A DNA stretch of 64,000 nucleotides from Mycolicibacterium baixiangningiae (GTDB taxonomy: Bacteria; Actinomycetota; Actinomycetes; Mycobacteriales; Mycobacteriaceae), in the NCBI RefSeq assembly GCF_016313185.1, contig NZ_CP066218.1, positions 1,922,001 to 1,986,000 on the forward strand, given 5' to 3'. Positions within the stretch are counted from its first letter, which is position 1. Each line of letters begins with the position of its first letter. The position numbers and the translations under genes were made by a program. Under the pieces are notes generated by a model. The model was given only the letters and a program-made list of their open reading frames with translations, searched no databases and had not been told where the DNA came from. Shown here piece after piece: positions 2,491-51,428 of this stretch.

Positions 2491-2505
2491 GAGAACTCTA
2501 TTCTC
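2491..2505. promoter_or_regulatory. Candidate operator GAGAAC-TCT-ATTCTC
   Basis: Palindrome with one mismatch to GAGAAT-N3-RTTCTC, in the 107-bp divergent region between the ferredoxin (34 nt away) and the CoA ligase (58 nt away). Its right half, with flanking GC, is identical to that of the best copy at 43446-43464. Confidence 0.65.
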
Positions 2506-2563
2506 GCGAAATGATAGGCTCTTCTCAAGTGCAATGTACGGCGTCCAGGAGGGTCCGGCGGCG

Positions 2564-3985
2564 GTGAACGATGGCCGACACGTGACGGAGTCCGCTGCAC
2601 TCGCATTCGGGGATCGCGAGTACTCCCTGGCGCAATTGGACGCGCTGGCCAGCGGTATGGCGACGGCGCTCGAGCAGCGGGGCGTCCGCGCCGGCGACCG
2701 GGTGGCGATGATGTCGTCGAACCGGCCCGAGTTCGTGGCGGCGCTGCGCGGCATCTGGCATCTGGGCGCCGCGGCGGTCCTGATCAGCCCCGCATGGAAG
2801 CAGACCGAGGTCGCGCACGCTCTGGAGTTGACCCGCCCCAGCCACGCCGTCGGCGATCATCCCGTACTCGCCGGGTTGATGCCGATGCTGCCTCTCGACG
2901 AACCCGTCGCCCCGGGGCGGCGCGAGTTCGACGCCGTCGATCCCGACACCGATGCGTTGTTCGTGTTCAGTTCGGGGACGACCGGTATGCCGAAAGCGGT
3001 CCGGCACACGCATCGGGCGTTCGCCGTGGCGGTCCGGCACTGGCGGGCTGCGCTGGAGTTGTCGTCGGCCGACCGGATGCAGATCATGACGCCGCCGTCG
3101 CACATCCTCGGCCTGCTCAACATCGTCATGGCGCTCGAGACGGGGACCTGGATCCGGTTGCACCCGCGGTTCGACATCGACACCATGCTGCACCACATCG
3201 AGTCCGACCGGATCACCATCGAGATGGCGGTGGCGCCGATCGCGCTGGCACTGGCCGCGCACCCGAAACTGGACAGCTACGACCTGTCGTCACTGCGCTA
3301 TGTCATGTGGTGCGCCACCCCGGTCACCGCGAGCGTCGCAGACGGCGTCACCCGTCGCACCGGGGTGGAGTGGGTTGCCGCCTACGGGACCACCGAATTG
3401 CCCGTCATCGCAGCCAATCCCGTTCACGGTGCGCGGTTGGACACCGTCGGTCGGCCGGTGCCGGGGGTGCAGGTGCGGATCGTGTCCCTGGAGGACGGGA
3501 CGCCACTGGGCGCCGACGAGGTCGGGGAGATCCAGGTGCGGTCGGAGTCGGTGATGGCGGGTTACCTTCCGCGGGAGGCGACGTCGACGGCGTTCGCCGA
3601 CGGTTGGTACCGCACCGGCGACGTCGGACGTCTCGACGCCGACGGGTGGCTGCGCATCACCGACCGCTCCAAGGAAATGATCAAGGTCCGCGGGTTCCAG
3701 GTGGCGCCGGCCGAGGTCGAGGCCGTCCTGCACGGACATCCCGCGGTCGAGGACTGTGCGGTGTTCGGTGAACCCCATCCCGGTGACGGTGAGGCAGTGG
3801 TCGCCGCCGTCACCACCAACAGCGCCGTCTCCGCCGAGGAGTTGATCGACCTCGTCGCCGAGAGGCTGGCGTCCTACAAGCGGCCGAACCGGGTGATATT
3901 CGTCCCGGAGATCCCGCGCTTACCTTCCGGGAAGGTATTGCGCCGAGTGCTCAAGGAGCGGCATGGACGTACGTCTGACAGCTGA
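2564..3985 (+). CDS. Acyl-CoA synthetase (AMP-forming, FadD-like)
   Basis: An ANL-superfamily ligase that adenylates a carboxylic acid and transfers it to CoA. The P-loop-like motif SSGTTGMPK lies near residues 136-144, GWYRTGDVGRLD near 347, and the C-terminal lysine motif LPSGKVLRR near 454. I prefer GTG 2564 because AGGAGGG sits 10 nt upstream (2547-2553); an in-frame ATG at 2534 would add 10 residues without a clear ribosome site. Length is about 473 residues, normal for short bacterial members. It overlaps the acyl-CoA dehydrogenase gene by 23 nt, so it leads an activation plus beta-oxidation operon running to the crotonase at 6621. The acid substrate cannot be read. Confidence 0.85.
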   Translation: MNDGRHVTESAALAFGDREYSLAQLDALASGMATALEQRGVRAGDRVAMMSSNRPEFVAALRGIWHLGAAAVLISPAWKQTEVAHALELTRPSHAVGDHPVLAGLMPMLPLDEPVAPGRREFDAVDPDTDALFVFSSGTTGMPKAVRHTHRAFAVAVRHWRAALELSSADRMQIMTPPSHILGLLNIVMALETGTWIRLHPRFDIDTMLHHIESDRITIEMAVAPIALALAAHPKLDSYDLSSLRYVMWCATPVTASVADGVTRRTGVEWVAAYGTTELPVIAANPVHGARLDTVGRPVPGVQVRIVSLEDGTPLGADEVGEIQVRSESVMAGYLPREATSTAFADGWYRTGDVGRLDADGWLRITDRSKEMIKVRGFQVAPAEVEAVLHGHPAVEDCAVFGEPHPGDGEAVVAAVTTNSAVSAEELIDLVAERLASYKRPNRVIFVPEIPRLPSGKVLRRVLKERHGRTSDS

Positions 3986-4778
3986 GCAGCAGCAACTGCG
4001 TGACGCCGCGGCCAAACTGGCCGACGATCTCGGACCGGGTTCGGTCGCCGATCTGGCCGACTCCGTCCGGCTCGCCCGCCTGGAGAAGACGGTCAAGTCG
4101 ACAGGCTGGCGATCACTGCGCTCCGACGGGGCCTCCGGGGTCGAAGTAGCCGTGGTGGCAGAGGAATTCGGCCGCGGCCTGGTCGACGTGCCGTTCCTCG
4201 GGCCCGCCCTGTCCGACGATCTCGGCCGGCTGCTAGGCCGTGCGCCGTCCGCGGTGGCCGACGAGCCAGGAGATGTCGACCTGACGCGCAGCGGGGCCGG
4301 GGTGGTGGAGACACCCGCCGAACTCTCGGAGTTGTCACCCGAGGATGCCCAGCGGTGGCATGCGCTGGCGCTCGCCACGACGTCGGCCGACATCCTCGGC
4401 GCCGCCCGCGGAGCCCACGCCCTGGCGTGCGACTACGCGAAAGTCCGTGAGCAGTACGGTAAGTCGATCGGGTCGTACCAGGCCGTCGCGCACCTGCTCG
4501 CCGAGGGGCTCGCGCTGATCGAAGGGTCGGTGTCGATACAGCGCCATGCCGCATGGGCGGTCGACGAGCTGCCGGCCGCCGAGGCGGTGCGGGCCGGCCG
4601 GTACGCCAAGCTGTACTGCGCGCGCGCCGCGCGCACGGTCTGCGAGACCGCGATCCAGGTGCACGGCGGTATCGGCAACACCTGGGAATGCCTGGCGCAC
4701 GTGTACTTGCGGCGCGTTCTGACCTCGACCGAATTGTGGCCGGTACGTCTGGAGGACATCGATCTTGGATTTTCGTGA
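3963..4778 (+). CDS. Acyl-CoA dehydrogenase, small subunit type
   Basis: At 271 residues this is about 110 shorter than a normal acyl-CoA dehydrogenase. The N-terminal helical start (LTAEQQQLRDAAAKLADDLG) and C-terminal helical domain (YAKVREQYGKSIGSYQAVAH, then QVHGGIGNTWE) are recognisable, while the central beta domain is mostly missing. Such short proteins pair with a full-length partner in the heterotetrameric enzymes of mycobacterial steroid catabolism (FadE26/27 and FadE28/29 types). Its neighbour, overlapping by 14 nt, is such a partner. AAGGAG precedes the ATG. Pairing is inferred from size and adjacency. Confidence 0.8.
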   Translation: MDVRLTAEQQQLRDAAAKLADDLGPGSVADLADSVRLARLEKTVKSTGWRSLRSDGASGVEVAVVAEEFGRGLVDVPFLGPALSDDLGRLLGRAPSAVADEPGDVDLTRSGAGVVETPAELSELSPEDAQRWHALALATTSADILGAARGAHALACDYAKVREQYGKSIGSYQAVAHLLAEGLALIEGSVSIQRHAAWAVDELPAAEAVRAGRYAKLYCARAARTVCETAIQVHGGIGNTWECLAHVYLRRVLTSTELWPVRLEDIDLGFS

Positions 4779-6684: not shown

Positions 6685-7425
6685 CTAGAAGGCGAGCTCT
6701 TCGGAGCGCTGAATCGTTCCGGTGATGCCGCCGGCATCCTGCCCCGCCAGCAGTACGGCGGCGCGTGCCATGGCCTCCGGCGGCTCCACCATCTCCGGCG
6801 GGACCTCCATACCCGCCCCGCCGGCCTGCCAGCCTTCGGTGAGCACGACACGTGACGGGCTGAGGCAGTTCACCGCGATGTTGTCCTCGCGCAGGTCGGC
6901 GGCCAAGCCCAGATACAAGCGCTCGGCGGCGGCCTTGGACACCCAGTACGCGTTCGACCCCTGATCGGTCATCGCCACGCCGGTGGTGGTCACGGCGATC
7001 AGCGAGCCGCCGCCGCGGGCACGCACGTGGGGGATCACCGCCTTCGTCACCAGGAAGACACCGGTGAGGTTCACGTTCAGGCAGAGCTGCCACCGCTTCA
7101 GCGGCGTCGATTCGATCGGGCCGAGCCACAGCACACCGGCGTTGGCAACCAGTATGTCGATGCCACCGAACTCCGAAACCGTCGCCGCCACAGCGGCTTC
7201 CACGGACTCTTCGTCGGTGACGTCGCACGTCACCGGCAGTGCGCGGCCGCCCGTCGCCGTGATGGCTTCGGCCACCGACCCGATGGTCCCCGGCAGCTTC
7301 CCCGGTTGTTCCGAGCGTGCCGCCACCGCGACCGATGCGCCTTCTGCGGCAAGCGCTTTGGCCACAGTCGCGCCGATCCCGCGGCTGGCACCGGCGACGA
7401 ACGCGACCTTGCCGGGGAGGGTCAC
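6685..7425 (-). CDS. Short-chain dehydrogenase/reductase (SDR)
   Basis: A classical SDR of 246 residues with GASRGIG near residue 13, VANAG near 96 and the catalytic pair YWVSK near 160. The serine position of the triad appears as Thr in a VTTTG segment. It probably oxidises or reduces a hydroxyl/keto group with NAD(P). The start is GTG 7425, overlapping the stop of the upstream SDR by 4 nt (GTGA), so the two are translationally coupled. Both are transcribed away from the palindrome at 8224. Confidence 0.85.
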   Translation of the reverse strand: MTLPGKVAFVAGASRGIGATVAKALAAEGASVAVAARSEQPGKLPGTIGSVAEAITATGGRALPVTCDVTDEESVEAAVAATVSEFGGIDILVANAGVLWLGPIESTPLKRWQLCLNVNLTGVFLVTKAVIPHVRARGGGSLIAVTTTGVAMTDQGSNAYWVSKAAAERLYLGLAADLREDNIAVNCLSPSRVVLTEGWQAGGAGMEVPPEMVEPPEAMARAAVLLAGQDAGGITGTIQRSEELAF

Positions 7426-8186
7426 TTGGGCGGGAACCGCAACGCTCCGTCGAGGCGGATGATCTCACCGTTGAGGTAGTCGTTCTCCACGATGCTCTGC
7501 GCGAGCTGTGCGTACTCCGTCGAGCGGCCCATGCGCTTGGGGAACGGCACCTGCGGAGCCCAGTACTGCTCGAGCTGGTCGGCGGCCTTGCCGTAGGCGG
7601 GGGTGTTGATCGTGCCGGGGGCGATGGTGACGACGCGGATACCGAGCGGCGAGAGGTCTCGCGCGGCCACCAGCGTGATGCCGAGCACGCCACCCTTGGC
7701 CGCCGCATAGGGGAGCTGGCCGATCTGGCCCTCGTATCCCGCGATGGATGCGGTGTTGATGATGACCCCGCGGGCTCCCTCGTCGAGCGGTTCCGACTTC
7801 GCGATCGCCGCGGCCGTCAGCCGCATCACGTTGAAGACCGCGGTCAGGTAGAACTCGATGGTCTTCTTGAACCCGTCCAGGTCGAGCGGTGTCCCGTCCT
7901 TGCCGATCAGGCGTCCGCCACTGGCCGGGCCGCCGTGGGTGTCCACCGAGATGCGCAGCGGGCCCAGTGATTCGGCCTCGGCGATCGCGGCGTTGACCGA
8001 CTCCTCGGAGGTCGCGTCGGTGCGGACGTAGCGCACGCCGAGTTCCGCTTCGAGCGCCGCGCCCTTCTCGTCGGCGAGGTCGGCGACGACCACCTTGGCG
8101 CCGGCGCCCTGCAGGCGGCGCACCGTCGCCTCGCCGAGCCCTCCTGCGCCTCCGACGACGATCGCTGAACTCCCGGCGATTTGCAT
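7422..8186 (-). CDS. SDR, 3-hydroxyacyl-CoA dehydrogenase type II-like
   Basis: A 254-residue SDR with [11 protein letters not shown] near residue 12, [10 protein letters not shown] and YAAAK. Its overall look (Asp-rich ADLADEKG after beta-2, APGTINTPA) is that of type II 3-hydroxyacyl-CoA dehydrogenases, NAD-dependent enzymes that can act on branched or ring acyl-CoAs as well as on hydroxysteroids. I chose ATG 8186, with AAGAAGGGGA upstream; an upstream in-frame extension to 8261 would run through the palindromic promoter. It diverges from the thiolase at 8265 and shares the operator at 8224-8238. Confidence 0.8.
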
Positions 8187-8223
8187 GCGCTTCCCCTTCT
8201 TGCAACTAGCACTCTCGTGCTGA

Positions 8224-8238
8224 GAGAATAACATTCTC
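8224..8238. promoter_or_regulatory. Candidate operator GAGAAT-AAC-ATTCTC
   Basis: Perfect 6-bp arms around a 3-nt centre, between the divergent SDR (8186) and thiolase (8265) genes, 26 nt before the thiolase start. A second small palindrome, AGCAC-TCTC-GTGCT, abuts it at 8208-8221. Confidence 0.7.
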
Positions 8239-8264
8239 ATACGTCGCAGAAACGGAGTCAATCA

Positions 8265-9416
8265 ATGCCCGAAGCCGTCATCGTCTCGGCGCTGCGCACG
8301 CCCATCGGGACCGCCGGGAAGGGGACGCTGCGCGACACCGACGCGCACCGGTTGGCCGAGCACGTCGTCGGTTCCGCGTCGGAAGACCTGCCCGCCCGTC
8401 AGATCGACGACGTCATCCTCGGAGAGGGCCTCTACGGCGGTGGCGTCATCGCGCGGCACGCGGCGATCACCGCCGGCCTCACCTCTGTACCCGGCCTGTC
8501 CAACAACCGCCACTGCGCGGCAGGCCAGGCTGCGGTGCAGAGCGCCGCGGCGAGTATCCGCGCGGGCATGGATCAGCTCGTGATCGCCGGCGGAGTCAAC
8601 TCGGCTTCCACCACCCCGCGCTTCACGCGCCGGGCCAGCAGCGCCAAAGACGCCGCGATGCTCGACTGGTTCCCGCCCACTCACCCCGACCGCGCGGATG
8701 CCCCGAACATGGACATGTCGATCACCGTCGGCTGGAACGCCGCCGTCCGCGCCGGCGTCAGCCGCGAGGAGATGGACCAGTGGGCGCTCGATTCCCACCG
8801 CAAGGCGGTCAGGGCCATCGACGAAGGCCGCTTCAAGGAGGAGATCGTCCCCATCGAGACGCCCTTCGGGGTGTTCGACACCGACGAGCATCCGCGCCGC
8901 GACACCAGCATGGAACGGCTTTCCGCGCTCAAACCGCTGCACCCCGAGATCGACGGCTTCTCGATCACCGCGGGCAACGCCTGCGGCGCCAACGACGGCG
9001 CCGCGGTGCTGACACTGGCCAGCGATCGCCTCGGGATGCCCGCACTCGGCGTCGTCAAGTCCTGGGCCTCGGTCGGCGTCGACCCGGCCTTCACCGGTCT
9101 CGCCCCGGTCGAGGCGATCCCGAAAGCGCTGAAGCGGGCCGGCATCTCGATCGCCGACGTCGACCTGTTCGAGATCAACGAGGCGTTCGCGGCGATGTGC
9201 GTGGCGACTGTCAAGATGCTCGACATCGACCCGGACAAGGTCAACGTCAGCGGCAGCGGGTGCTCGCTGGGTCACCCCGTGGCCGCGACCGGCGCCCGGA
9301 TGCTGGTGACGCTCGTGCACGAATTGCGCCGTCGCGGAGGGGGTATCGGCGTCGCGGCCATGTGTGCCGGTGGCGGTATGGGTTCGGCGACGGTGATCGA
9401 GGTGCCCGGGATTTAG
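8265..9416 (+). CDS. Thiolase (acetyl-CoA acyltransferase family)
   Basis: A 383-residue thiolase. The nucleophilic Cys is in NNRHCAAGQA near residue 86, the NEAFA motif near 306, the catalytic His in SLGHPVAATG near 343 and the second Cys in MCAGGG near 366, so the full catalytic set is present. It should cleave a 3-oxoacyl-CoA to acetyl- or propionyl-CoA plus the shortened acyl-CoA. GGAG lies about 9 nt before the ATG. Its place between divergent SDRs and MeaB fits the last step of a side-chain or ring beta-oxidation. Confidence 0.9.
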   Translation: MPEAVIVSALRTPIGTAGKGTLRDTDAHRLAEHVVGSASEDLPARQIDDVILGEGLYGGGVIARHAAITAGLTSVPGLSNNRHCAAGQAAVQSAAASIRAGMDQLVIAGGVNSASTTPRFTRRASSAKDAAMLDWFPPTHPDRADAPNMDMSITVGWNAAVRAGVSREEMDQWALDSHRKAVRAIDEGRFKEEIVPIETPFGVFDTDEHPRRDTSMERLSALKPLHPEIDGFSITAGNACGANDGAAVLTLASDRLGMPALGVVKSWASVGVDPAFTGLAPVEAIPKALKRAGISIADVDLFEINEAFAAMCVATVKMLDIDPDKVNVSGSGCSLGHPVAATGARMLVTLVHELRRRGGGIGVAAMCAGGGMGSATVIEVPGI

Positions 9417-13586: not shown

Positions 13587-14312
13587 CTAGAGGACGGCGG
13601 CGAGTTCCTTGGCGGCGGTGATCACGGCGTCCTTCCCTCCCAGCACGACGTCCTCGCGGTGCGAGATGAGGTTGATGCACGTCGGCGGCGAGGGCGGCCG
13701 CCGGCGCACCGGCACCGCGAGGCCGTAGGTGTTGGGCTCGACCTCGCCGTGGGTGATCACCCAGCCGCGCTCGCGGGCATGGGGCACCAGCTCACGTTCG
13801 CCGGGACGCGGCGGCATGCTCGCCAGCAGCGCGATCCCCGCGGCGCCGCGATCGAGCGGATACCGGCTGCCCTCGTGGAAGGACAAGTGGTAGTAGACGT
13901 TCGTCGGGACGATGACCGCCACCGCCACCTGCTGATCGCCCTCGGCCACGAGCAGCGAGACCGTGGTGCCCAGCTCGTCGGCGAGCCCGCGCAGCACCGG
14001 CACGCTCAACGCGCGCACGTTGTTGTCGAACGACGAGCCGAGCAGCGCCAGGCCGGCCGCCGGGCGGTACCGGCCGTCCTCACCCTTGGCGACGTAGCGG
14101 AACTGGGTCAGCGTGCCGAGTAGTCGATAAGCGATCGTGCGGTGCACGCCAACGTATTCGGCAACCTGCTGCACCGTGAGGCCGGCGGGCGCGGTGGCCA
14201 CCGCCTGCAGCGCCGACAACCCCCTCGCGAGGGTCTGGGATCCAGCCGCGAGTTTGTCGGGCACGTTTCCTTTGGTATCAGGGCCTTTGGTCTCAGCGCC
14301 TTTCGCTTCCAT
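13587..14312 (-). CDS. IclR-family transcriptional regulator
   Basis: About 242 residues: an N-terminal winged helix (LARGLSALQAVATAPAGLT, then VQQVAEYVGVHRTIAYRLL near residues 50-70) and a C-terminal effector domain (ELGTTVSLLVAEGDQQV; YPLDRGAAGIALLA). IclR proteins such as MhpR control aromatic-acid catabolic operons, and this gene faces an MhpC/A/B-like operon. I chose ATG 14312, preceded by AAGGGA at 9 nt; an ATG at 14339 is also in frame. The shared promoter region contains an inverted repeat TAGTGA-N16-TCACTA (14372-14399) and the TetR-type palindrome at 14409, so two regulators may act here. Confidence 0.85.
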   Translation of the reverse strand: MEAKGAETKGPDTKGNVPDKLAAGSQTLARGLSALQAVATAPAGLTVQQVAEYVGVHRTIAYRLLGTLTQFRYVAKGEDGRYRPAAGLALLGSSFDNNVRALSVPVLRGLADELGTTVSLLVAEGDQQVAVAVIVPTNVYYHLSFHEGSRYPLDRGAAGIALLASMPPRPGERELVPHARERGWVITHGEVEPNTYGLAVPVRRRPPSPPTCINLISHREDVVLGGKDAVITAAKELAAVL

Positions 14313-14371
14313 GCCGCCCGTTCCCTTGACAGACGTCATCGCGAGAGTGATGCTCTTAACATAGTGCACAT

Positions 14372-14399
14372 TAGTGAGCGATATTAGCACTCGTCACTA
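14372..14399. promoter_or_regulatory. Inverted repeat TAGTGA-N16-TCACTA, possible IclR site
   Basis: Two perfect 6-bp arms (14372-14377 and 14394-14399) about two helical turns apart, between the IclR gene and the MhpC-like gene. Assignment to IclR rests only on position. Confidence 0.35.
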
Positions 14400-14406: not shown

Positions 14407-14425
14407 GCGAGAATGCGATTTCCGC
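14407..14425. promoter_or_regulatory. Candidate operator GCGAGAAT-GCG-ATTTCCGC
   Basis: The left arm matches the best site at 43446 over 8 bases and the right arm over 6 of 8. It ends 22 nt before the GTG of the meta-cleavage operon. This is the weakest of the six regulon-type sites. Confidence 0.5.
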
Positions 14426-14447: not shown

Positions 14448-15311
14448 GTGGCTGAGCACGAAAGTGTGTGGAGCGACCTGCAGGGTGTGGCCTTCTCGCA
14501 GGGGTATCTCGACGCCGGCGCGGTGCGCACGCGGTACCTGCACGCCGGAGAAACCGACAAACCGACGCTGGTCTTCCTGCACGGTTCCGGCGGGCACGCC
14601 GAGGCCTACGTGCGCAACCTCGAGGCGCACGCCGAACACTTCTCCACCTGGTCGATCGACATGCTGGGACACGGCTACACCGACAAACCCGGCCATCCCC
14701 TCGAGATCCGCCACTACGTCGAGCACCTGCTGGCCTTCCTCGATGCCATCGGGGCCGAGCAGGCCCACATCAGCGGTGAATCGCTGGGCGGCTGGGTCGC
14801 GGCCCGGTTGGCCGCCGACCACGGTGACCGTGTGGAGCGGTTGGTGCTCAACACCGCGGGCGGGTCCCAGGCGGATCCAGAGGTCATGAAGCGCATCGTC
14901 ACGCTGTCCATGGCCGCTGCCGAGGACCCCAGCTGGGAGACCGTGCAGGCCCGCATCACATGGTTGATGGCGGACAAGAGCAAGGGTTACGACGACATCG
15001 TCGCCAGCCGCCAACGGGTATACCGCCAACCGGGATTCGTCACCGCGATGCGCGACATCATGGCGCTGCAGGATCCTGAGATCCGCGCCCGTAACCTCCT
15101 CGGCCCCACGGAGTACGGCGCCATCGCCGCGCCGACGCTCGTGGTGTGGACCAGTGACGACCCGACCGCCGACGTCGAGGAGGGCCGGCGCATCGCGTCG
15201 ATGATCCCCGGCGCCCGGTTCGAGGTCATGCCCGGCTGCGGACACTGGCCCCAGTACGAGGATCCCAAGACCTTCAACCGCTTACATCTCGACTTCCTGC
15301 TGGGGCGCTGA
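14448..15311 (+). CDS. Alpha/beta hydrolase, MhpC/HsaD-like C-C bond hydrolase
   Basis: A 287-residue alpha/beta hydrolase. The nucleophile is in SGESLGGW near residue 108, the acid probably in the [10 protein letters not shown] segment near 240 and the His in GCGHWPQ near 265. This arrangement is that of meta-cleavage-product hydrolases, which split the dienoic acid made by an extradiol dioxygenase. The flavin hydroxylase and the dioxygenase follow directly, which supports that role. The start is GTG 14448, with purine-rich GGGGAGAG upstream. Its stop overlaps the next ATG (ATGA). Confidence 0.85.
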
Positions 15312-17026
15312 TGGCCGACCTCGCTGGACAAGACGGTGCCGGGCCGGACGGTACGGATGCCGACGTCGTCATCGTCGGCGCCGGGCCGGTGGGCCTGACG
15401 CTGGCGAACATCCTCGGACTGCAGGGCGTGCGCACCGTGATCGTCGAGGAACGGTCGACGCTCATCGACTATCCGCGCGGGGTCGGACTCGACGACGAGG
15501 CGCTGCGGACCTTCCAGGGCATCGGCCTGGTCGACAAGGTCCTGCCGCACACCGTGCCCAACCAGATCCTGCGGTTCTTCGACGGCAACCGCCGGCTGCT
15601 CGCGGAGATGGCCCCGCCCGACGCGCGATTCGGGTGGCCCAAGCGCAACGGCTTCGTCCAACCGATGGTGGACGCCGAACTCCTCGGCGGATTGTCCCGG
15701 TTCCACCACGTCGAGGTGCGATGGGGGCAGAGGATGGCGGGATGCCGCGAGACGCCGGACGGCGTGACGGTGGAGTTGCCCGGCGAGACCGTGCGCGCCC
15801 GCTATGTCGTCGGTTGCGACGGCGGGCGCAGTGCGACGCGCCGGCTGATGGGGGTGTCGTTCGACGGCACCACCTCGCCGACGCGCTGGCTGGTCGTCGA
15901 CATCGCCAACGATCCGCTCGGCCACCCCAACAGCGAGGTCGGCGCGGACCCGGCCCGGCCGTACGCCTCGATCTCCATCGCGCACGGAATCCGGCGGTTC
16001 GAGTTCATGATCCACGCCGACGAAACCGACGAGCAGGCCGAGGATCCGGCGTTCATCAGTTCGATGCTGAGCCGCCTCGTGCCGCACCCCGAGCGCGTCG
16101 ACATCATCCGGCACCGGCTCTACACCCACCACTCCCGCATCGCAGGCACGTTCCGCGAGGGCCGGATGTTCCTCGCCGGCGACGCCGCGCATCTCATGCC
16201 GGTCTGGCAGGGCCAGGGTTACAACAGCGGCATCCGCGACGCGACCAACCTCGGCTGGAAGCTTGCCGCGGTGGTCAACGGTCAGGCCGGTGACGCCCTG
16301 CTCGACACCTATGACGTCGAACGCCGCAAGCATGCCCGCGCCATGATCGACCTGTCGACGCTGGTCGGCCGCGTCATCTCGCCGACCAACCGCCACGTTG
16401 CGGGCCTGCGGGACAGGTTGATTCGCGGCGCATCGGTGGTGCCCACTCTCAAGCGTTACGTGCTGGAGATGCGGTTCAAGCCGATGCCCCGCTACGAGCA
16501 GGGCGCGGTCTTCCATCCTGAGCCGCCGTCGGCCACCTCACCGACGGGGACGCTGTTCGTCCAACCGCGAGTCGACACCCGCGATCAGCAGAATGTGCTG
16601 CTCGACGAGGTGCTGGGCACCGGCTTCGCGGTGTTGTGCTGGAACAACAATCCGCGTGCGCTGCTGGGTGCCGACATCTTCGACCGGTGGAAAGCGTTGG
16701 GCGCGCGCTTCATCACCGCGCGTCCGTCGACGCAACTGCACTGGACCGGTCACGACGACCCCGACGTCCGCGTGATCGGTGACCGCACCGGCGCGTTGAA
16801 GGGCTGGTTCGACGCGCACACCGAATCGGTGCTGTTTCTGCGCCCCGACCGCTGTATCGCGGGCGCCTGCATCGCCCAACGGGCGCCCGACGTGAGCACC
16901 GCACTGTTCGACGTGCTCCATCTCACCCAGGGAGGAGGCAATGGTCACCATGGCGCAGATCGCCCTGTGCTGCATGTCGCACAGTCCGCTACTGAACCTT
17001 CCGGGACCGTCGCGGGAACTTCTTGA
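15311..17026 (+). CDS. mhpA: FAD-dependent aromatic hydroxylase, MhpA-like
   Basis: A 571-residue class A flavin monooxygenase. The FAD motif [14 protein letters not shown] is at residues 17-30, the DG motif [10 protein letters not shown] near 172 and the GD motif [16 protein letters not shown] near 288, with a thioredoxin-like C-terminal part. MhpA hydroxylates 3-hydroxyphenylpropionate ortho to its phenol with NADH and O2, giving the catechol for MhpB. The gene order MhpC-MhpA-MhpB supports the family call, not necessarily that substrate. Its last 86 nt overlap the dioxygenase gene in another frame, longer than the usual 4-nt overlap in this operon. Confidence 0.85.
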
Positions 17027-17891
17027 CGACATCGACGCGGCGCTCACCGGCGCCCGTGATTTCGTCGCCGAGTTCGATCCGGAGTTGGTGGTCACCTTCT
17101 CCCCGGACCACTACAACGGGTTCTTCTACAAGGTCATGCCGCCGTTCTGTGTCGGCACGTCGGCCCAGGGCGTCGGTGACTACGGCACCCACGCCGGTCC
17201 GCTCGACGTGCCGAAGAACCTCGCCGACGAGTTGGCCGCGGCGGTGCTCGAAGCCGATGTCGACATCGCGATCTCGGCGAGCATGGATGTCGACCACGGC
17301 ACCGTGCAGCCGCTGCAGAACCTGTTCGGCGACCCGACCACCCGGCCCGTCATCCCCGTGTTCATCAACTCCGTCGCCACGCCGTTGGGCCCGCTGCGCC
17401 GATCGCGGTTGCTGGGCGCGGCGATCGGCGGCTACCTCGCGACGCTCGACAAGCGCGTCCTGGTGGTCGGTTCGGGCGGGCTGTCCCACGACCCTCCGGT
17501 GCCCACGCTGGCCACCGCCCCACCCGCTGCGCTCGAACGGATCGTGCACGGCGCCCCGATGAGCACTGAGGCGCGGATGGCCCGGCAGTCCGCGGTCATC
17601 GACGCCGCGCGCGCGTTCGCACACGGTGAGAGCACTCTGCAACCGCTGAACCCGGTGTGGGACCGCACGTTCCTGGAGATCCTCGACCAGGGCTGGCTGT
17701 CCGATCTCGACGGGTGGTCGAATCCCTTCATCGCCCGCGAGGGCGGTAACTCCGCCCACGAGATCCGCACCTGGGTGGCCGCGTTCGCGGCGCTGGCGGC
17801 CAGCGGCGAATACCGCACCGCGCAGCGGTTCTACCGGGACGCACCGGAACTGATCGCCGGTTTCGGCATCCGGACGGCGGTGCTTGCGTGA
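16941..17891 (+). CDS. mhpB: Extradiol ring-cleavage dioxygenase, MhpB/LigB type
   Basis: A 316-residue class III (LigB superfamily) dioxygenase. An early His-bearing segment, [12 protein letters not shown], gives a likely iron ligand near residue 14; SPDHYNGFF near 55 and the central [11 protein letters not shown] near 118 follow, then SGGLSHDPP near 180, all as in MhpB. It opens catechol-type rings at the meta position using Fe(II). The ATG has a strong GGAGGAGG. It differs in family from HsaC of the cholesterol pathway, a type I extradiol enzyme. The stop overlaps the next GTG (GTGA). Confidence 0.85.
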
Positions 17892-19648
17892 ACTTCGACA
17901 GACAGGTCGACGTGCTGGTGGTGGGCTCCGGGGGCGGCGGTATGACGGCCGCGCTGACCGCGCAGTCCTGTGGGCTGGACACCTTGGTGGTCGAGAAGGC
18001 CGCGCATTTCGGCGGATCCACCGCGCTCTCGGGCGGCGGCATCTGGGTGCCGGGCGCCCCGTCGCAGCGCAAAGCCGGTTACACACCGGACCCCGAGAGC
18101 GTCTTCGGCTACCTCAAACAGATCACCGGCGGTCTGGTCAGCGATGCGCGTCTGCGCACGTACGTCGACGCCGCCCCGCAGATGATGGAATTCCTCGAGG
18201 ACCTCAGCCCGTGGTTCGAATTCGTGTGGAAACCCGGCTACGCCGACTACTACCCGGAGCTGCCCGGCGGATCAGAACTCGGCAGCACGATCAACGTGCC
18301 GGCCATCGATCTGCGTGAACTCGGCGAGGAGGAGCAGCACCTGCTGCAGCCGCTCGCGTTGGCGCCCAAGGGAATCTGGTTCGCGCCCAAAGACCTTCGC
18401 CTCTTCTACCAGGTACGCCAGAACTGGCGGGGTAAGGCCGTCCTGGTCAAGCTGATCTGGCGGATGGTCAGGGCGCGGGTGTTCGGCGACCGGATGGCCG
18501 CCATCGGCCAGTCGCTGGCCGCGCGGATGCGCCTGGCCATGAAACAACAGGACATCCCGCTGTGGCTGGACACCCCGATGACCGAACTCATCACCGGTCC
18601 CGACGGTGAGGTGGTCGGTGCGGTCATCGAGAAGGACGGGCGTGCGGTCCATATCGGCGCGCGCCGCGGAGTGATCCTGGCCGCCGGCGGATTCGACCAC
18701 GACATGGCGTGGCGCAAGCAGCACCTGCCCCTCCTGGAGAAGGACTGGAGCTTCGGGAACCCGGCCAACGTGGGCGACGGTATCCGTGCCGGCGAGAGGG
18801 TCGGCGCTGCAAGCGAACTGCTCGACGAGGCCTGGTGGTTCCCGGCGATGTGCTGGCCCGACGGCCGGTTGCAGTTCATGCTCAACGAACGCATGATGCC
18901 CGCCCAGTTCGTCGTCAACGGCGACGGCAGGCGCTTCATCAACGAGGCGGCGCCCTACATGGACTTCGCGCACGCGATGATCGACGGGCAGCGCTCCGGT
19001 GTCACGCACATCCCGTGCTGGCTGATCACCGACATCGCATCGTTCCACCGCTACGTCGTCGGCGGCCATCTACCCATCCCGAAGATCCCGTTCGCGCCCG
19101 TGCCCACCGGCTGGAAAGTGCCCAAGGCGTGGCTGGAGTCCGGGGTGGTCCACGAGGCGCGCACATGGGAGGAGATGGCGGGCAAGATCGGGGTGCCGCC
19201 GGAGCACCTGCGCCGGACCGCCGAGCGGTTCAACGAACTGGCGCACAAGGGCCACGACGACGACTTCAATCGCGGCGACAGCGCCTACGACAACTACTAC
19301 GGCGACCCCACACTGCCCAACCCCAACCTGCACCCGCTGGGCAAACCGCCGTACTACGCGTTCCAGATCATCCTCGGCGACCTCGGCACCTCCGGCGGGC
19401 TGCGCACCGACGAACACGCCAGGGTGCTGCGCGCCGACGATTCGGTCGTGCCCGGCTTGTACGCGGTGGGCAACAACTCCGCGGCGGTGATGGGCCGCAG
19501 TTACGCCGGGGCGGGCGCGACGATCGGCCCCGCGATGACCTTCGGCTACGTCGCCGCCAAACACATTGCCGCACAACCCGTTGCCAGTGCGCCACCACAC
19601 CAAGCTCAACCCAGTCCAGGGCCGTCACCCATCGGAGGAAGCACATGA
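17888..19648 (+). CDS. FAD-binding dehydrogenase, KstD-like (second copy)
   Basis: A 586-residue flavoprotein. The FAD motif [15 protein letters not shown] is at residues 9-23, [18 protein letters not shown] near 38, and the C-terminal [16 protein letters not shown] near 540. Like KstD it should desaturate a ring ketone, which would prepare a ring for aromatisation before hydroxylation and cleavage by the neighbours. It is only distantly similar to the copy at 11943, so it is not a recent duplicate. The C-terminal 20 residues are low-complexity, rich in Pro, Ser, Ala and Gln. It starts GTG 17888 and overlaps the next gene by ATGA. Confidence 0.8.
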
Positions 19649-24723: not shown

Positions 24724-24817
24724 GACCCCATTCTGGCAGCGGGGTATGACAAATCTCGGGCCGCGCAAAGTCCGGCCGACAAGCGCACATTAAGCACTTC
24801 GGTCATTCCGGGCGTTA

Positions 24818-24832
24818 GAGAATCAGGTTCTC
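24818..24832. promoter_or_regulatory. Candidate operator GAGAAT-CAG-GTTCTC
   Basis: Full match to GAGAAT-N3-RTTCTC, 31 nt before the GTG of the hydrolase at 24864 and on the far side of the divergent HNH gene start. It should control the 24864 operon. Confidence 0.7.
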
Positions 24833-27440: not shown

Positions 27441-27441
27441 T

Positions 27442-42671: not shown

Positions 42672-43325
42672 TTAGATCCGGGCGAAACCGTGGGCGACGA
42701 AGTCCCAGACCTCGTCGGCGCTGATCGGATGGACGGATACGTCGTCGGCGCCGCCACTGGACTGGGCGACGAACATGACCGTCTGCATCGTCATCGCGGC
42801 CATCCGCTTCGGGTTGATGCCGTCGCGGAGCTCACCGGCGGCGCTGGCGTCCTCCATCAACTCGGCCAGCAGTACGAGGAGCGGGGCGTGGGCCACCTTC
42901 ACCTCGGTGGGATGCGAGACCAGCAGGCGCGGGGCGAAGTCTGTGAACAGCGGCCGCTTGGCGGCGGGATCGGGGCGCGAGGTCTCGAAAAGCAGCTGGA
43001 CGGCCACTTTGAGCCGCTCGATCGGATCGGTGTGGCTGGCGGTGGCCGCGCGGATCTGGTCGGCCGAGCGGCTCAGCGCATCCTCGAACAGCGCCAGAAG
43101 CAGTTCGTGCTTACCGTCGAACTGCAGGTAGAAACTGCGAAGCGACTGACGTGACCGGTCGACGACCTCCTGCACGGTGAAATCCGTGCTGCCCTTTTCG
43201 ATGATGATCGCCTGGGCGGCATCGAGGAAACGCTGAACACGTTGCGCCGCGCGCAGTTTGGCGGTCTTGATCGACCGCTCGACAGCCCGCTGCTTCCAGG
43301 CCGGCTCTTCGCTGGGGGTGCTCAC
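42672..43325 (-). CDS. TetR-family regulator, candidate master regulator of the cluster
   Basis: About 217 residues: a helix-turn-helix (RVQRFLDAAQAIIIEKG; FTVQEVVDRSRQSLRSFYLQ; FDGKHELLLALFEDAL) and a helical effector domain. GTG 43325 (start of VSTPSEEPAW) is chosen; an upstream frame to 43466 would cross the operator and has no TetR-like content. The 187-bp divergent region to the acyl-CoA dehydrogenase carries the most symmetric copy (19 bp) of the palindrome found at six places. Autoregulation with control of the other sites is inferred; the likely ligand is a CoA ester or ring intermediate. Confidence 0.8.
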   Translation of the reverse strand: MSTPSEEPAWKQRAVERSIKTAKLRAAQRVQRFLDAAQAIIIEKGSTDFTVQEVVDRSRQSLRSFYLQFDGKHELLLALFEDALSRSADQIRAATASHTDPIERLKVAVQLLFETSRPDPAAKRPLFTDFAPRLLVSHPTEVKVAHAPLLVLLAELMEDASAAGELRDGINPKRMAAMTMQTVMFVAQSSGGADDVSVHPISADEVWDFVAHGFARI

Positions 43326-43445
43326 CGGCAGCTCGTGACCTGGCCGGGTAGGGAGAACATGAATGAACTGTACCGGAGAACGCCTTGGCATTGCGGTCCT
43401 AGCCCCCCTCGCGACCAACGTGCCTGAGATTGTGCCTTCCTCATG

Positions 43446-43464
43446 GCGAGAATAGTATTCTCGC
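43446..43464. promoter_or_regulatory. Best candidate operator GCGAGAAT-AGT-ATTCTCGC
   Basis: Perfect 8-bp arms around 3 nt, between the divergent TetR and acyl-CoA dehydrogenase genes, 48 nt before the latter. The core is 43448-43462. It serves as the reference for the motif family. Confidence 0.75.
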
Positions 43465-43512
43465 ATTGGGCATTAGAGAAGCGTTTCCCCAGAGAGTAAA
43501 CCCGGGAGTGCC

Positions 43513-44694
43513 GTGCAGCTGACTTTCGACGCCGACGTCGAAGCGTTCCGGGCCGAGTTCGTCGCATTCCTGGACGCCCATCAGCCTGACGAGACCGAGG
43601 CGGCGCAGCGCCCGCGGTCCTCCGCCGACGTCCCGGACTGGGCCCGCGGCTGGCAGCGCCTGCTGTTCGACAACGGCTGGCTGCTGCCCGGCCACCCGCC
43701 CGAATTCGGCGGCAGGAACGCCACCGTCCTGCAGCAGTACGTCCACCAACTCGAACTGTCGCGGCGGCGCATCTACCACAGCTTCAACCCCCAGGGCGTG
43801 GGGATCATCGCGGCGTCGCTGATCTCCTTCGGCACGCCCGAACAACAGCAGAAGTGGGCGGTGCCGATCCTGCGCGCGGAGATCACCGCCGCCCTGGGGA
43901 TGAGCGAACCGGGCGCCGGATCCGACCTCGCGTCGCTGCGCACCCGGGCCGTGCGCGCCCCTGGCTCCGGGCACTTCATGGTCGACGGTCAGAAGGTCTG
44001 GACGTCGGGGGCGAACGAGGCGGACGTGATCCTGACGTTCGTGCGCACCGATCCGGACGCGGCCAAACACCGCGGCATCAGCGTGCTGATGATCCCCACC
44101 GATTCCCCCGGTGTCGTCCGCCGTCCGTTCGCGTCGATCTGTGACGCGGAGGAACTCGATTTCAACGAGGTGTTCTTCACCGACGTCGAGGTGCCGGCGG
44201 AGAACCTGATCGGTCCGGAGAACGACGGCTGGCGGGTGGCGAACGGATCACTCGGGCACGAACGCACGATGCTGTGGCTGAGCTACGCCGATCGCCTGCA
44301 GGATCTGCTCGACGACTTCCCGGTCCGCACCCCGCTGGACCGTGACCACTACGCCACCATGGTCATGGACTCGATGGCGTTGCGGCTGCTCGGTTCGGTC
44401 GCGCTCGCCCGGGCCGCCAGGGGCGCCGAGGACGCGGCGGCACTGTCGGTACTCAAGCTGCTCGGGTCCGAAACCGGGCAGACGGCCACCGAACACGCAC
44501 TGGCCGCGGCCGGGACGGACGGCCTGCCCCACCCCACCACCGTCGGGCCGTGGACCCCGCTCAACCTCGACGCCTACTCGTGCGGTTGGTTCGAGCGCTA
44601 CACCCGCAGCTTCGCCGGCACCATCGCCGGCGGCACGTCAGAAATCCAGCGCAACATCATCGCCCAGCGACTGCTCGGGTTACCCAGGAGCTAG
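43513..44694 (+). CDS. Acyl-CoA dehydrogenase
   Basis: A 393-residue full-length acyl-CoA dehydrogenase with MSEPGAGSDLASLRTRA near residue 133, KVWTSGANEADV near 160 and the C-terminal GGTSEIQRNIIAQRLLGL. The medium-chain Glu position is Gly. It starts with GTG preceded by a weak CGGGAG site. It forms an operon with the crotonase that follows after 9 nt and is directly under the strongest operator, next to the TetR. It oxidises an acyl-CoA at C2-C3; the chain or ring substrate is unknown. Confidence 0.85.
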   Translation: MQLTFDADVEAFRAEFVAFLDAHQPDETEAAQRPRSSADVPDWARGWQRLLFDNGWLLPGHPPEFGGRNATVLQQYVHQLELSRRRIYHSFNPQGVGIIAASLISFGTPEQQQKWAVPILRAEITAALGMSEPGAGSDLASLRTRAVRAPGSGHFMVDGQKVWTSGANEADVILTFVRTDPDAAKHRGISVLMIPTDSPGVVRRPFASICDAEELDFNEVFFTDVEVPAENLIGPENDGWRVANGSLGHERTMLWLSYADRLQDLLDDFPVRTPLDRDHYATMVMDSMALRLLGSVALARAARGAEDAAALSVLKLLGSETGQTATEHALAAAGTDGLPHPTTVGPWTPLNLDAYSCGWFERYTRSFAGTIAGGTSEIQRNIIAQRLLGLPRS

Positions 44695-44703: not shown

Positions 44704-45486
44704 GTGTACATCGACTACGAGGTCGCCGACCGGATCGCGACCATCTCGCTGAACCGGCCCGAGGTCGCCAACGCCCAGAACACCGAACTGCTCGACGAAC
44801 TCGACGCGGCGTGGACCCGCGCCGCCGAGGACCCTGACGTGGTGGTGATCGTCTTGCGCGCCAACGGGAAACACTTCTCGGCGGGTCACGATCTGCGGGG
44901 TGGCGGCCCGGTGCCGGACAAGATCACGCTCGAATTCATCATCGCCCACGAGTCGAAGCGGTACCTCGAGTACACGCTGCGGTGGCGCAACGTGCCGAAG
45001 CCGTCGATCGCCGCGGTGCAGGGCCGCTGCATCTCCGGTGGGCTGATGCTGTGCTGGCCGTGCGACCTGATACTGGCCGCCGACGACGCCCTGTTCTCCG
45101 ATCCGGTCGCGCTGATGGGCATCGGCGGCGTCGAATACCACGGGCACACTTGGGAATTAGGGGCGCGCAAGGCCAAGGAGATCCTGTTCACCGGGCGGCC
45201 GCTGACCGCCGAGGAGGCCGAACGCACCGGCATGGTCAACCGCGTGGTGCCCCGCGACGACCTCGACGCCGAGACCCGCGCGCTGGCCGAGCAGATCGCC
45301 GCGATGCCGCCGTTCGCGCTGCGGCAGGCCAAACGCGCGGTCAACCAGACCCTCGACGTGCAGGGTTTCTACGCCGCGATCCAGTCGGTGTTCGACATCC
45401 ACCAGACCGGGCACGGCAACGCGCTGAGCGTGGGCGGATGGCCGGTGCTGGTCAACCTCGAGCAGATGAAGAGCACCGTCAAGTAG
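44704..45486 (+). CDS. Crotonase-fold enoyl-CoA hydratase/isomerase family protein
   Basis: A 260-residue crotonase-fold protein with HFSAGHDL near residue 60 and a second oxyanion segment QGRCISGGLML near 107. The two hydratase glutamates are replaced by Met (GGLML) and Val (FSDPV), so it is not a standard hydratase. GAGGAGA precedes GTG 44704. It is co-transcribed with the dehydrogenase and converges with the small dehydrogenase subunit at 45516; a hairpin spans the junction. Confidence 0.8.
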   Translation: MYIDYEVADRIATISLNRPEVANAQNTELLDELDAAWTRAAEDPDVVVIVLRANGKHFSAGHDLRGGGPVPDKITLEFIIAHESKRYLEYTLRWRNVPKPSIAAVQGRCISGGLMLCWPCDLILAADDALFSDPVALMGIGGVEYHGHTWELGARKAKEILFTGRPLTAEEAERTGMVNRVVPRDDLDAETRALAEQIAAMPPFALRQAKRAVNQTLDVQGFYAAIQSVFDIHQTGHGNALSVGGWPVLVNLEQMKSTVK

Positions 45487-49119: not shown

Positions 49120-49181
49120 CGCCGAGACTACGGTTGTTGACGCATTCCGGTCGATTTTCCTCAGAAACCGTAGTCTCGGCG
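49120..49181. repeat. 62-bp inverted repeat, copy B
   Basis: CGCCGAGACTACGGTT (49120-49135) and its exact reverse complement (49166-49181) flank a 30-nt centre with CGGTCGATTTTCC. Length, ends and centre match the element at 51-112. It separates two genes of one minus-strand operon and may form an RNA hairpin that alters downstream expression. Confidence 0.65.
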
Positions 49182-49196
49182 ATGCGGTGCGCACCT

Positions 49197-49526
49197 CTAG
49201 ACCACCGGCTCCTTGATCAGCTTGATGTACGAGGCGCCGCTGTCGAGTACGCGCGGCTGCTTCCACACCTCGACGGGGAAGCTGACCATGACGATCGACT
49301 GGCCCAGATGCACCAGCGCCTTCGCGTCCTCCGGCATCCCCTTGAGCGGGAATCGCGCGTCGACGTAGACCATGATGTCCTCGAGACGCGCCATGCCTGC
49401 GTCGTACAGCTCCTGCATCTCGTCCATCGTCGAGGCCAGGCGCTTGGCGTACCGCTCCTCCTCGGTCGGCAGACACCAGTCGGCGAAGCGCTCCAGATCG
49501 GCGAACTCTTCGGGCAACTTAGACAT
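49197..49526 (-). CDS. Uncharacterised 109-residue protein next to the Rieske oxygenase
   Basis: I do not recognise this family. It is 109 residues, acidic, without Cys clusters or membrane segments (one Cys, in DWCLP). It looks helical in the first half (PTEEERYAKRLASTMDEMQ) and mixed later (FPVEVWKQPRVL). It overlaps the end of the Rieske gene by 8 nt, which suggests a subunit, chaperone or accessory protein of that oxygenase. ATG 49526 is chosen over an upstream frame because the longer form is basic and overlaps the oxygenase deeply. Confidence 0.7.
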   Translation of the reverse strand: MSKLPEEFADLERFADWCLPTEEERYAKRLASTMDEMQELYDAGMARLEDIMVYVDARFPLKGMPEDAKALVHLGQSIVMVSFPVEVWKQPRVLDSGASYIKLIKEPVV

Positions 49527-50856
49527 GCGCTTCGTCCTTCGCTTCGGTCGCGGCGTGCTGTCCGTTCGTGACACTGCCGTTGGCCAGCGACGCCTTGTAG
49601 CGATCCACGTACTGGTGAGCCGTCATGTGCAGGTGACGCAGCAGGATCTCCTGGTCGCACAGCGGGAAGTCCATGACCACCCTGGTGCCGATCTGCGTCT
49701 GCGTGGCCTCGAGGGTGTTGGCGTCCTGGAACGCGTACTCCTTGAACGTCACCGCGGCGAGTTCCTGGGACAGCCGCTCACGGAGGTTCTTCGGCGGCAC
49801 GAAGTAGAGGTCGGCCTCGAAGATGTGCTTGTCCACCGCGGTCGGCCAGTAGTTGTAGGTGAGGTACCAGCCCGGCGCCCAGAACAGCAGCGTGAAGTTG
49901 GGGAAGAACTCGAACGAGTCTGTGCCCCAGGTCTTGTGGCGGCCCGGATTGATCGCCGGCGGCAACTCTTCTGGCAGGATGCCCTTGATGTCGGGGCGGT
50001 CCCACGGACCGAACAGACCGCTGTGCAGGATCCGCTCGATGGGCTTGACCATGTTCAGATCCTTGGGTGGGCTCATCCCGCCCCACGACGAGACCATCGA
50101 ATGGTCGCCCTTGATGTCGTAGGCCAGTGCCTCGAAGCCCCACTCCGCGAGCTTCTCGGCTTCCTCCTTCGCCGCCTGCTTCATGTGCAGGATCGGCGCG
50201 TGGTAGAACTCGGTGAACGCGTCGATGAACAGCTTCCAGTTCGCGTTGATCTCCGAGCGGTAGCTGTAATGCTCGGTCATCTCGTGGAACGGGTAGCCCT
50301 CGAGGCCCTCGGCGAAATCGCCCAGGTGCTCACGCAACGGCGCCGCGTCTTTGTCGAAGTTGATGAAGATGAAGCCTTCCCACACCTCGCAGCGGACAGG
50401 GACCAGACCGTACTGCGACTTGTCGAGGTCGAAGAACTCCCCTTCCTGCTGGACGAACGTCAGGTCACCTTTGAGGTCGTAGCGCCACGCGTGGTACTTG
50501 CACACGAACTGACGGCATGAGCCGGCCACCTCCTCGCCCGGGAAGTCCGACCACACCAGCTTGTTGCCGCGGTGCCGGCAGAAGTTGTAGAACGCCCGCA
50601 CCTCGTTGTCGGTGCCCTTGACGATGACCACCGAGGTGCCAGGCCCGGCGCACGGCATTTCGCGGGTGAAGTAGCTGCCCTTCTTGGGGAGTTGCTCAAC
50701 GCGGCCCACCTTGAGCCAGGTTTTCTTGAAGATCGCCTGCTGCTCGAGCTTGAAGTGCTCCGGGTCGACGGAGTCCTCGTAGTTCACCGGCGCGGTGCCG
50801 AGTTCCGGCCAATTCTCTGTCCAGCTACCGGCGGCCGGCTTCGGAAAATGTGCCAC
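49519..50856 (-). CDS. Rieske non-heme iron oxygenase, alpha subunit
   Basis: A 445-residue ring-hydroxylating oxygenase component. The Rieske [2Fe-2S] ligands are in CRHRGN near residue 92 and CKYHAW near 112. The mononuclear iron site reads TEFYHAPILH near 215, with the last Asp expected in the C-terminal part. It activates O2 to hydroxylate a ring or aliphatic C-H. No reductase or ferredoxin is adjacent; the orphan ferredoxin at 2139 has the same type of operator. The start is GTG 50856, with AGGAGAGG upstream. Confidence 0.9.
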   Translation of the reverse strand: MAHFPKPAAGSWTENWPELGTAPVNYEDSVDPEHFKLEQQAIFKKTWLKVGRVEQLPKKGSYFTREMPCAGPGTSVVIVKGTDNEVRAFYNFCRHRGNKLVWSDFPGEEVAGSCRQFVCKYHAWRYDLKGDLTFVQQEGEFFDLDKSQYGLVPVRCEVWEGFIFINFDKDAAPLREHLGDFAEGLEGYPFHEMTEHYSYRSEINANWKLFIDAFTEFYHAPILHMKQAAKEEAEKLAEWGFEALAYDIKGDHSMVSSWGGMSPPKDLNMVKPIERILHSGLFGPWDRPDIKGILPEELPPAINPGRHKTWGTDSFEFFPNFTLLFWAPGWYLTYNYWPTAVDKHIFEADLYFVPPKNLRERLSQELAAVTFKEYAFQDANTLEATQTQIGTRVVMDFPLCDQEILLRHLHMTAHQYVDRYKASLANGSVTNGQHAATEAKDEAHV

Positions 50857-50862
50857 GGTTCG

Positions 50863-51393
50863 TTACCTCTCCTGGTCGGGTTCTACGCCGAATGTGTTGA
50901 TCGCCATGGCGAGCGCGCCATAGCAGCCGATGGTGAAGACGAGATCCATGCGCTGGCGCTCGTCGAGATGGGCACTGAGTTCGGCCCACGTCTGATCGGA
51001 GATGTTCGCCTTCTGCTGCAGTTGGTCCACCGCGTCGAGAACCGCCTGGTCGAGTTCGTCGGCGCCGTGGCCGCCGGCGGCACCGGCGATGGCGGTGTCG
51101 GTCAGCCCGACCTCCTTGCCCATCGCGACGTGGTGTGCCCACTCGTACTCGGACCCGAGGAGGTGGGCGACGCGCAGGATCGCCAGTTCACGTAGGCGGG
51201 GCGGAAGCGTCGAACGGAACAGCAGGTGGACGTTGAAGCGCAGGAACGCACGGGTCAGGCTGGGGTGACGGGCGAGCGTCGACAACAGGTTCCCCGCGCC
51301 CGCCGGGTTGAGCCGCTCCTCGGGAAGCATCACCGACAGCGCGCGCCGCACGTCGTCATCCCACTGATCCGCCGGCAACGGGGCCAGGCGCAC
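50863..51393 (-). CDS. Carboxymuconolactone decarboxylase (CMD/AhpD-like) family protein
   Basis: A 176-residue helical protein with the CMD core (LRELAILRVAHLLGSEYEWAHH near residues 67-86). The AhpD-type CxxC pair is absent, so peroxidase-partner activity is unlikely; the EWAHH form is common in actinobacterial members of unknown activity. It is the first gene of the minus operon leading to the Rieske oxygenase, and its GTG lies 20 nt from the palindrome at 51414-51428. It may act on a ring-cleavage or lactone intermediate, which is inference. Confidence 0.8.
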   Translation of the reverse strand: MRLAPLPADQWDDDVRRALSVMLPEERLNPAGAGNLLSTLARHPSLTRAFLRFNVHLLFRSTLPPRLRELAILRVAHLLGSEYEWAHHVAMGKEVGLTDTAIAGAAGGHGADELDQAVLDAVDQLQQKANISDQTWAELSAHLDERQRMDLVFTIGCYGALAMAINTFGVEPDQER

Positions 51394-51413
51394 GGGCGTC
51401 TCCTCTCCCAGGT

Positions 51414-51428
51414 GAGAATCGGGTTCTC
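51414..51428. promoter_or_regulatory. Candidate operator GAGAAT-CGG-GTTCTC
   Basis: Full match to the motif, extended to TGAGAAT...GTTCTCA, 20 nt before the CMD gene start. A further half-site cluster lies at 51548-51588 on the other side of the 237-bp divergent region. Confidence 0.7.

Follow-up and report, generated by a model that had tools for sequence, protein, structure and literature searches.

The region considered here is a 64,000-nucleotide stretch of the Mycolicibacterium baixiangningiae genome (contig NZ_CP066218.1, positions 1,922,001 to 1,986,000), hereafter the window. A pattern scan of this 64-kb window found five full copies of the palindrome GAGAAY-N3-RTTCTC, and a sixth, weaker copy is also present. 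We sought the protein that reads this palindrome, the likely candidate being a TetR-family protein encoded at 42672-43391. The putative operator sites and the genes adjoining them are:

2491..2505, GAGAACTCTATTCTC, full match, between ferredoxin (minus strand) and CoA ligase (plus strand) genes
8224..8238, GAGAATAACATTCTC, full match, between short-chain dehydrogenase (SDR; minus) and thiolase (plus) genes
14409..14423, GAGAATGCGATTTCC, putative weak operator with two mismatches, between IclR (minus) and hydrolase (plus) genes
24818..24832, GAGAATCAGGTTCTC, full match, between a DUF222/HNH gene (minus) and an alpha/beta hydrolase gene (plus)
43448..43462, GAGAATAGTATTCTC, full match, between the TetR gene (minus) and an acyl-CoA dehydrogenase gene (plus)
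51414..51428, GAGAATCGGGTTCTC, full match, between carboxymuconolactone decarboxylase (CMD)-Rieske genes (minus) and a gene for a DitZ-like protein (plus)

A preliminary description of this DNA had given the six sites, and their coordinates and letters were all confirmed. Five sites fit GAGAAY-N3-RTTCTC (in site 2491 the sixth base is C), and the two mismatches stated there for 14409 were likewise found. Its estimate of chance matches proved conservative, since from base composition one would expect about 0.004 full matches in the window and 0.35 in the genome. The genome-wide scan that it had suggested detected ten full sites in the 6.18-Mb genome, against no match of the reversed control. 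None of the ten lies in a gene body according to a simple gene caller (a script based on GC content at third codon positions, which missed some genes), and several fall within the 5′ extension of the longest open reading frame (ORF). Nine of the ten are located within 242 kb (1,924,491-2,166,622) and the tenth is distant; the extent of 49 kb first given to the cluster was set by the window limits. The copies share the 15-bp core only, with centre and flanks differing among sites. When up to two mismatches were allowed, the window gave 17 matches, whereas 100 shuffled sequences averaged 4.25 (maximum 9), indicating that part of the two-mismatch ones is at chance level, and the 25 one-mismatch places of the genome are more loosely distributed than the full sites, only five of them falling in the 242-kb interval. 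The earlier assignment of the palindrome to divergent promoters holds for all six window sites by the same gene caller, but for only two of the five full sites outside it (L017 and L020), which lie in separate pieces of the genome:

L016, before a P450 gene, same-direction genes
L017, between genes for a PF04909 protein and an acyl-CoA dehydrogenase, divergent genes
L018, before a gene for a PF04909 protein, same-direction genes, overlapping the last two bases of the preceding gene
L019:7608-7622 (genome position 2,166,608), upstream of a 2-oxoacid:ferredoxin oxidoreductase gene with POR domains, here labelled korA, same-direction genes
L020, between genes for two luciferase-like monooxygenases, divergent genes

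Two of these pieces hold further palindromes. A one-mismatch site (GAAAATGCCGTTCTC) at L018:10355-10369 stands just 5′ of a gene without a Pfam match and behind a CoA ligase-like gene, and two weaker palindromes upstream of an SDR gene (L017:14611 and L017:14764, scores 17.0 and 12.5) are possible further operators.

Sites were then counted in 61 genomes, comprising 37 of the same genus (the own genome included) and 24 of other families. The counts within the genus were bimodal: the 29 of 37 genomes with an orthologue of TetR 42672-43391 carry 1-12 sites each (28 of the 29 carry 5-12), and the eight genomes lacking it carry 0-2, as do the 24 other-family genomes; reversed controls gave 0-1 per same-genus genome. 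In 1.55 Mb of sequence around the TetR orthologue, taken from the best 80 of 375 named loci carrying it (titled Mycobacterium or Mycolicibacterium), 218 full sites were found against no reversed control. M. vaccae and M. litorale are among the species with an orthologue. What was computed directly is the sites themselves, where they lie and how far they are conserved, and their phyletic link to the TetR. The regulon idea survived both refuting tests that had been proposed for it, namely an equal frequency of the motif inside genes and a lack of site conservation in relatives.

The same promoters recur among relatives. In five of them (G011, G016, G020, G029 and G031), 42 of 45 sites adjoin a homologue of a gene from the window or from one of the genome pieces, and the remaining sites (L194, L185 and L187) have no such homologue beside them, or a weak one. 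All five relatives have a site at the CoA ligase gene (with ferredoxin on the other flank of this 2491-type site in four), at the TetR promoter, at the CMD/DitZ-like promoter (51414-type, same position), at the L017 dehydrogenase and at the L018 gene; the gene facing TetR across its site is not identical in all five. The 8224-type site adjoins the SDR or thiolase gene in three of the five, and in G031 the orthologue of the following gene at 9437. A full site is found at the IclR/hydrolase promoter in two, at the L016 P450 gene in two, at korA in one and at the L020 pair in none. Extra sites occur on the 3′ side of the TetR gene in four relatives and before a phosphotransferase homologue in three, and neither place holds any of the ten own-genome sites. 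A site matrix was built from 52 sites, ten from the own genome and 42 from the five relatives (L194, L185, L187 and L180 were left out); all 52 were chosen by exact pattern, which predetermines its core positions.

The proposed regulator and the genes that face it are as follows:

42672..43391, minus strand, proposed regulator of the TetR family, 239 aa from ATG, with an alternative GTG start at about 43325 (217 aa)
43513..44694, plus strand, acyl-CoA dehydrogenase, predicted target divergent from TetR, all models below cut-off, pimC-like best
44704..45486, plus strand, enoyl-CoA hydratase family protein, NF006140 above cut-off

The TetR has an N-terminal helix-turn-helix (HTH) domain (PF00440, E 2.6e-7, above the gathering cut-off), and relatives among the best 120 of 4931 matches are 217 or 239 aa long and named TetR/AcrR regulators. 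A full site was found upstream of its orthologue in 81 of 81 rows, at -140 in 69 and at -139 to -152 in the others. The promoter consensus contains TACAAT at about -112 to -107, each base present in more than 75% of rows, and this position downstream of the site suggests that the operator would cover the -35 region of the TetR promoter. Binding of a 15-bp palindrome by a TetR dimer is a standard arrangement (PMC4482099). Within the first TetR codons (window 43325-43391) there are also two well-conserved GTTCTC half-sites (GGCGTTCTCCGGTA and CATGTTCTCCCC), for which the constraint may be coding or operator.

Four proteins encoded in the window are candidate readers, and all of them track the sites: the TetR at 42672, an IclR at 13587 and two further TetRs at 26605 and 58694. 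The latter three are each present in 28 of the 37 genomes with a phyletic profile nearly identical to that of TetR 42672, and phyletic profiling was accordingly rejected as a regulator test on its own. TetR 42672 is favored because of the 81 of 81 upstream sites, because G026 keeps it alone of the four, and because a variant operator faces a second copy of the protein. G026 encodes an orthologue of TetR 42672-43391 (80%) with no match to the IclR, TetR 26605 or TetR 58694 at E 1e-30, and has exactly one full site. This lies some 20-30 bp ahead of a PF01636 phosphotransferase gene; sites are also borne by the orthologues of that gene in G031 and G016 (74-78% identical) and by a homologue in G029. 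In G016 and G022 a second copy of TetR 42672 is accompanied by a second hydratase gene, and in G016 by a dehydrogenase gene as well, and faces, at the matching place, the symmetric variant GAGAAG-N3-CTTCTC (G016:C1:715934-715948 and G022:C1:839602-839616). This variant occurs once each in G016 and G022 and in none of nine other genomes searched.

Taken together, the palindrome is very probably the operator of TetR 42672-43391, which would be an autoregulated repressor of a multi-operon, oxygenase-rich catabolic regulon. Several observations weigh against this assignment. At the TetR promoter the window's own -10 copy reads CACAAT, and a sigma-70 scan of 43250-43550 called no promoter. G026 has only a degenerate site at its own TetR promoter, and it is the sole genome separating TetR 42672 from the other three candidates, by one site. 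The reversed control of the variant matched once in 4 of 11 genomes, so that the presence of the variant says little and only its place is informative; moreover, the HTH of the second TetR copy differs from that of the first at few residues, and the pairing is a single evolutionary event. Site 24818 has a full counterpart upstream of the orthologous hydrolase gene in only one (G021) of 26 testable relatives (27 were searched, G008 being without upstream sequence); the DUF222/HNH gene may be an insertion that split the hydrolase genes from an earlier promoter. Finally, the presence of the korA site follows that of the TetR only imperfectly. The korA gene was found in all 30 genomes searched, and its full site is present in 9 of 21 TetR-bearing relatives tested; among nine other genomes (the eight without the TetR, and G026) it is present in G009, which lacks the TetR, and absent from the other eight, and G002 has a two-mismatch remnant at korA. 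The korA promoter, tried as a clean test of TetR dependence, thus came out mixed; a different protein may read the korA site, or the site may be a relic.

The strongest competing explanation is that the palindrome is recognized by the IclR-family protein, acting as activator or repressor of the regulon. Its gene is divergent from a meta-cleavage operon across site 14409:

13587..14390, minus strand, IclR-family regulator, local rival reader, PF09339 and PF01614
14448..15311, plus strand, meta-cleavage-product-hydrolase-like protein, HsaD-like, below cut-off
15311..17026, plus strand, flavin hydroxylase of the 3-(3-hydroxyphenyl)propionate family, NF004828 above cut-off
16941..17891, plus strand, extradiol dioxygenase of the 3-carboxyethylcatechol family, NF009910 above cut-off, PDB 8k04 E 1.2e-100
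17888..19648, plus strand, flavin adenine dinucleotide (FAD) protein related to 3-ketosteroid dehydrogenases, NF009473 above cut-off, ketosteroid models below theirs

An IclR dimer, too, would suit a palindrome of this length (about 15 bp), and this was counted in favor of the IclR, together with its position across 14409 and its occurrence, under the same site profile, in 28 of the 37 genomes. However, only 7 of 28 loci have a full site at its promoter, compared with 81 of 81 rows for TetR 42672, and G026 still has one regulon-type site without an IclR match, and we consider the IclR an unlikely reader. In 19 of the 21 other loci the best place upstream of the IclR gene retains an intact RTTCTC half next to an altered other half (e.g. 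GGAAAT, GAAAAT or GATAAT), and locus L144 has two mismatches with one intact half. Site 14409 would accordingly be an operator of low affinity that has been conserved, and not a site decaying in a single genome. It precedes the meta-cleavage operon, in which two proteins, the hydroxylase and the dioxygenase, pass NCBIfam cut-offs.

Either of the two other TetR-family proteins could also be the reader:

26605..27246, plus strand, second TetR-family protein (rival)
58694..59326, plus strand, third TetR-family protein (rival)

Both share the phyletic profile, and TetR 26605 is located behind site 24818. Neither was matched in G026, the site ahead of TetR 26605 is the one with a counterpart in a single testable relative, and the closest window site to TetR 58694 is about 7 kb away, which makes a reader among these two improbable. 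No more plausible is a variant KstR or KstR2 regulon, i.e. ordinary sterol catabolism: relatives of ketosteroid dehydrogenases, HsaD and thiolases are encoded in the window, but it contains no match to the KstR operator TnnAACnnGTTnnA and none to the KstR2 operator AnCAAGnnCTTGnT with up to one mismatch, and TetR 42672-43391 matches solved KstR chains weakly (E about 0.0015). A palindrome spread by a repeat or transposon, with no regulator involved, can practically be dismissed as the source of the sites, for although they cluster in one genomic region, only the 15-bp core is common to them, without flank homology and with variable centre and flanks, and they stand at orthologous promoters across the genus and are scarce in genomes without the TetR.

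The genes adjoining the window sites, or in the clusters beside them, include the following:

2139..2606, minus strand, 2Fe-2S ferredoxin ORF, PF00111, real start probably internal, below the site
2534..3985, plus strand, acyl-CoA ligase family protein, models below cut-offs
7422..8261, minus strand, SDR ORF, PF00106, real start probably internal, below the site
8265..9416, plus strand, thiolase, TIGR01930 above cut-off
23443..24768, minus strand, DUF222/HNH gene, adjoining site 24818
24864..25706, plus strand, alpha/beta hydrolase
27325..28680, plus strand, cytochrome P450, PF00067
28706..29884, plus strand, PF04909 protein, dinuclear-type ligand pattern kept in alignment
49519..50856, minus strand, Rieske oxygenase alpha subunit, PF00848/PF00355
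50863..51393, minus strand, CMD-family protein, PF02627
51631..52929, plus strand, PF04909 protein similar to DitZ/PtmU3, dinuclear-type ligand pattern

With TetR 42672-43391 as the reader, its dimer would occupy GAGAAY-N3-RTTCTC over the promoter regions of about ten transcription units, among them its own. They would stay blocked until the dimer is released by an intermediate of the pathway, probably a CoA thioester. Operator binding, repression, effector and substrate are what we infer from the results above. The units would encode a CoA ligase, acyl-CoA dehydrogenases, a hydratase, a thiolase, SDRs, Rieske and P450 oxygenases, a ferredoxin and PF04909 proteins of the DitZ/PtmU3 type, and the meta-cleavage operon would join the regulon behind its weaker site with an IclR regulator of its own. 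A search of solved structures with the TetR revealed no close relative (best E 7.6e-8). Its structure model, made from a shallow alignment (31 rows, 84-94% identical), matched generic TetR/FadR folds only, with acyl-CoA-binding FadR proteins among the closest; these matches are weak (template-modelling score to the model about 0.5-0.65, mean predicted local distance difference test 73) and count against the assignment as well. The effector of KstR2 is HIP-CoA (PMC6593523), and this precedent and the FadR matches are the reasons for suggesting a CoA thioester.

The gene content also points to a kind of substrate. The protein at 51631 resembles both DitZ (PDB 8uyr, E 5e-107) and PtmU3. The latter acts in diterpenoid biosynthesis as a diiron hydroxylase and takes CoA-linked substrates (PMC7782822). 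The dinuclear pattern (DxH, H, E, D..H plus an acid for the second metal) is kept in three of five aligned PF04909 proteins (51631, 28706 and L018:7607), which thus have in common with PtmU3 and AibH2 (PMC10811679, PMC7782822) and with DitZ (PDB 8uyr) the ligand pattern with the extra acid. In contrast, the extra acid is missing from the alignment in L017:6686 and L017:5496. A search of open-licence papers for DitZ or its relatives found no DitZ paper, and the link of DitZ to diterpenoids would be a reading of its name. Proteins like DitZ and PtmU3, encoded together with CoA ligase, acyl-CoA dehydrogenase, thiolase, Rieske and P450 genes, suggest a polycyclic isoprenoid-like acid as the most likely substrate. 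The earlier proposal that the operons form one pathway is weaker than first worded, since it comes from gene content. More tentatively still, and with fairly low confidence, the TetR may govern an undescribed mycobacterial pathway degrading a polycyclic isoprenoid, an acid of the diterpenoid or steroid type, by means of several dinuclear oxygenases of the amidohydrolase fold alongside Rieske and P450 enzymes and, in some species, the housekeeping 2-oxoacid:ferredoxin oxidoreductase KorAB recruited for reduced ferredoxin.

Known mycobacterial regulons offer close parallels. Like the system proposed here, the KstR (Rv3574) regulon is controlled by an autoregulated TetR repressor, which sits over its own promoter, and has a short palindrome over promoters, many divergent targets and a role in lipid/ring catabolism (PMC1995591); unlike it, the KstR operator is 14 bp long with a 2-nt centre, and the KstR protein is distantly similar to TetR 42672. 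The KstR2 regulon (PMC3068626) likewise has a TetR repressor, few sites near its own gene and divergent promoters, but its operator is again of 14 bp. The nearest published case is motif X, assigned to G155_05115, the Rv0767c orthologue of Mycobacterium sp. VKM Ac-1817D, a palindrome that accompanies a TetR gene and 14 operons; phytosterol raises 12 of these operons more than 3-fold (PMC6593523). The genes listed for it differ from those found here, and the regions bound by Rv0767c are reported to be enriched in GAC/GTC (PMC10312376), unlike GAGAAT/ATTCTC; judged by its written description, motif X is unlikely to be identical with GAGAAY-N3-RTTCTC. In open-licence literature, searches for the exact motif strings found no paper and topic searches, in their top-ranked results, nothing on a GAGAAY-N3-RTTCTC regulon, and to this extent the earlier description of the regulon as previously hidden holds. 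Its view of one shared palindrome defining a multi-operon regulon distinct from that of KstR is supported, with no KstR operator in the window; the regulon is larger than described (ten full sites, nine over 242 kb and one distant) and a regulator can now be proposed, but site 24818 is rarely common to relatives. An autoregulated catabolic regulon under a TetR is a known kind of system, and the predicted operator, GAGAAY-N3-RTTCTC, is its own, distinct from those of KstR and KstR2.

With these results, a large oxygenase cluster of environmental mycobacteria gains a candidate regulator, operator and target list, and the compound that releases the repressor would reveal the substrate of the pathway. 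Another widespread operator type would thereby join the picture of mycobacterial ring catabolism drawn from KstR and KstR2.

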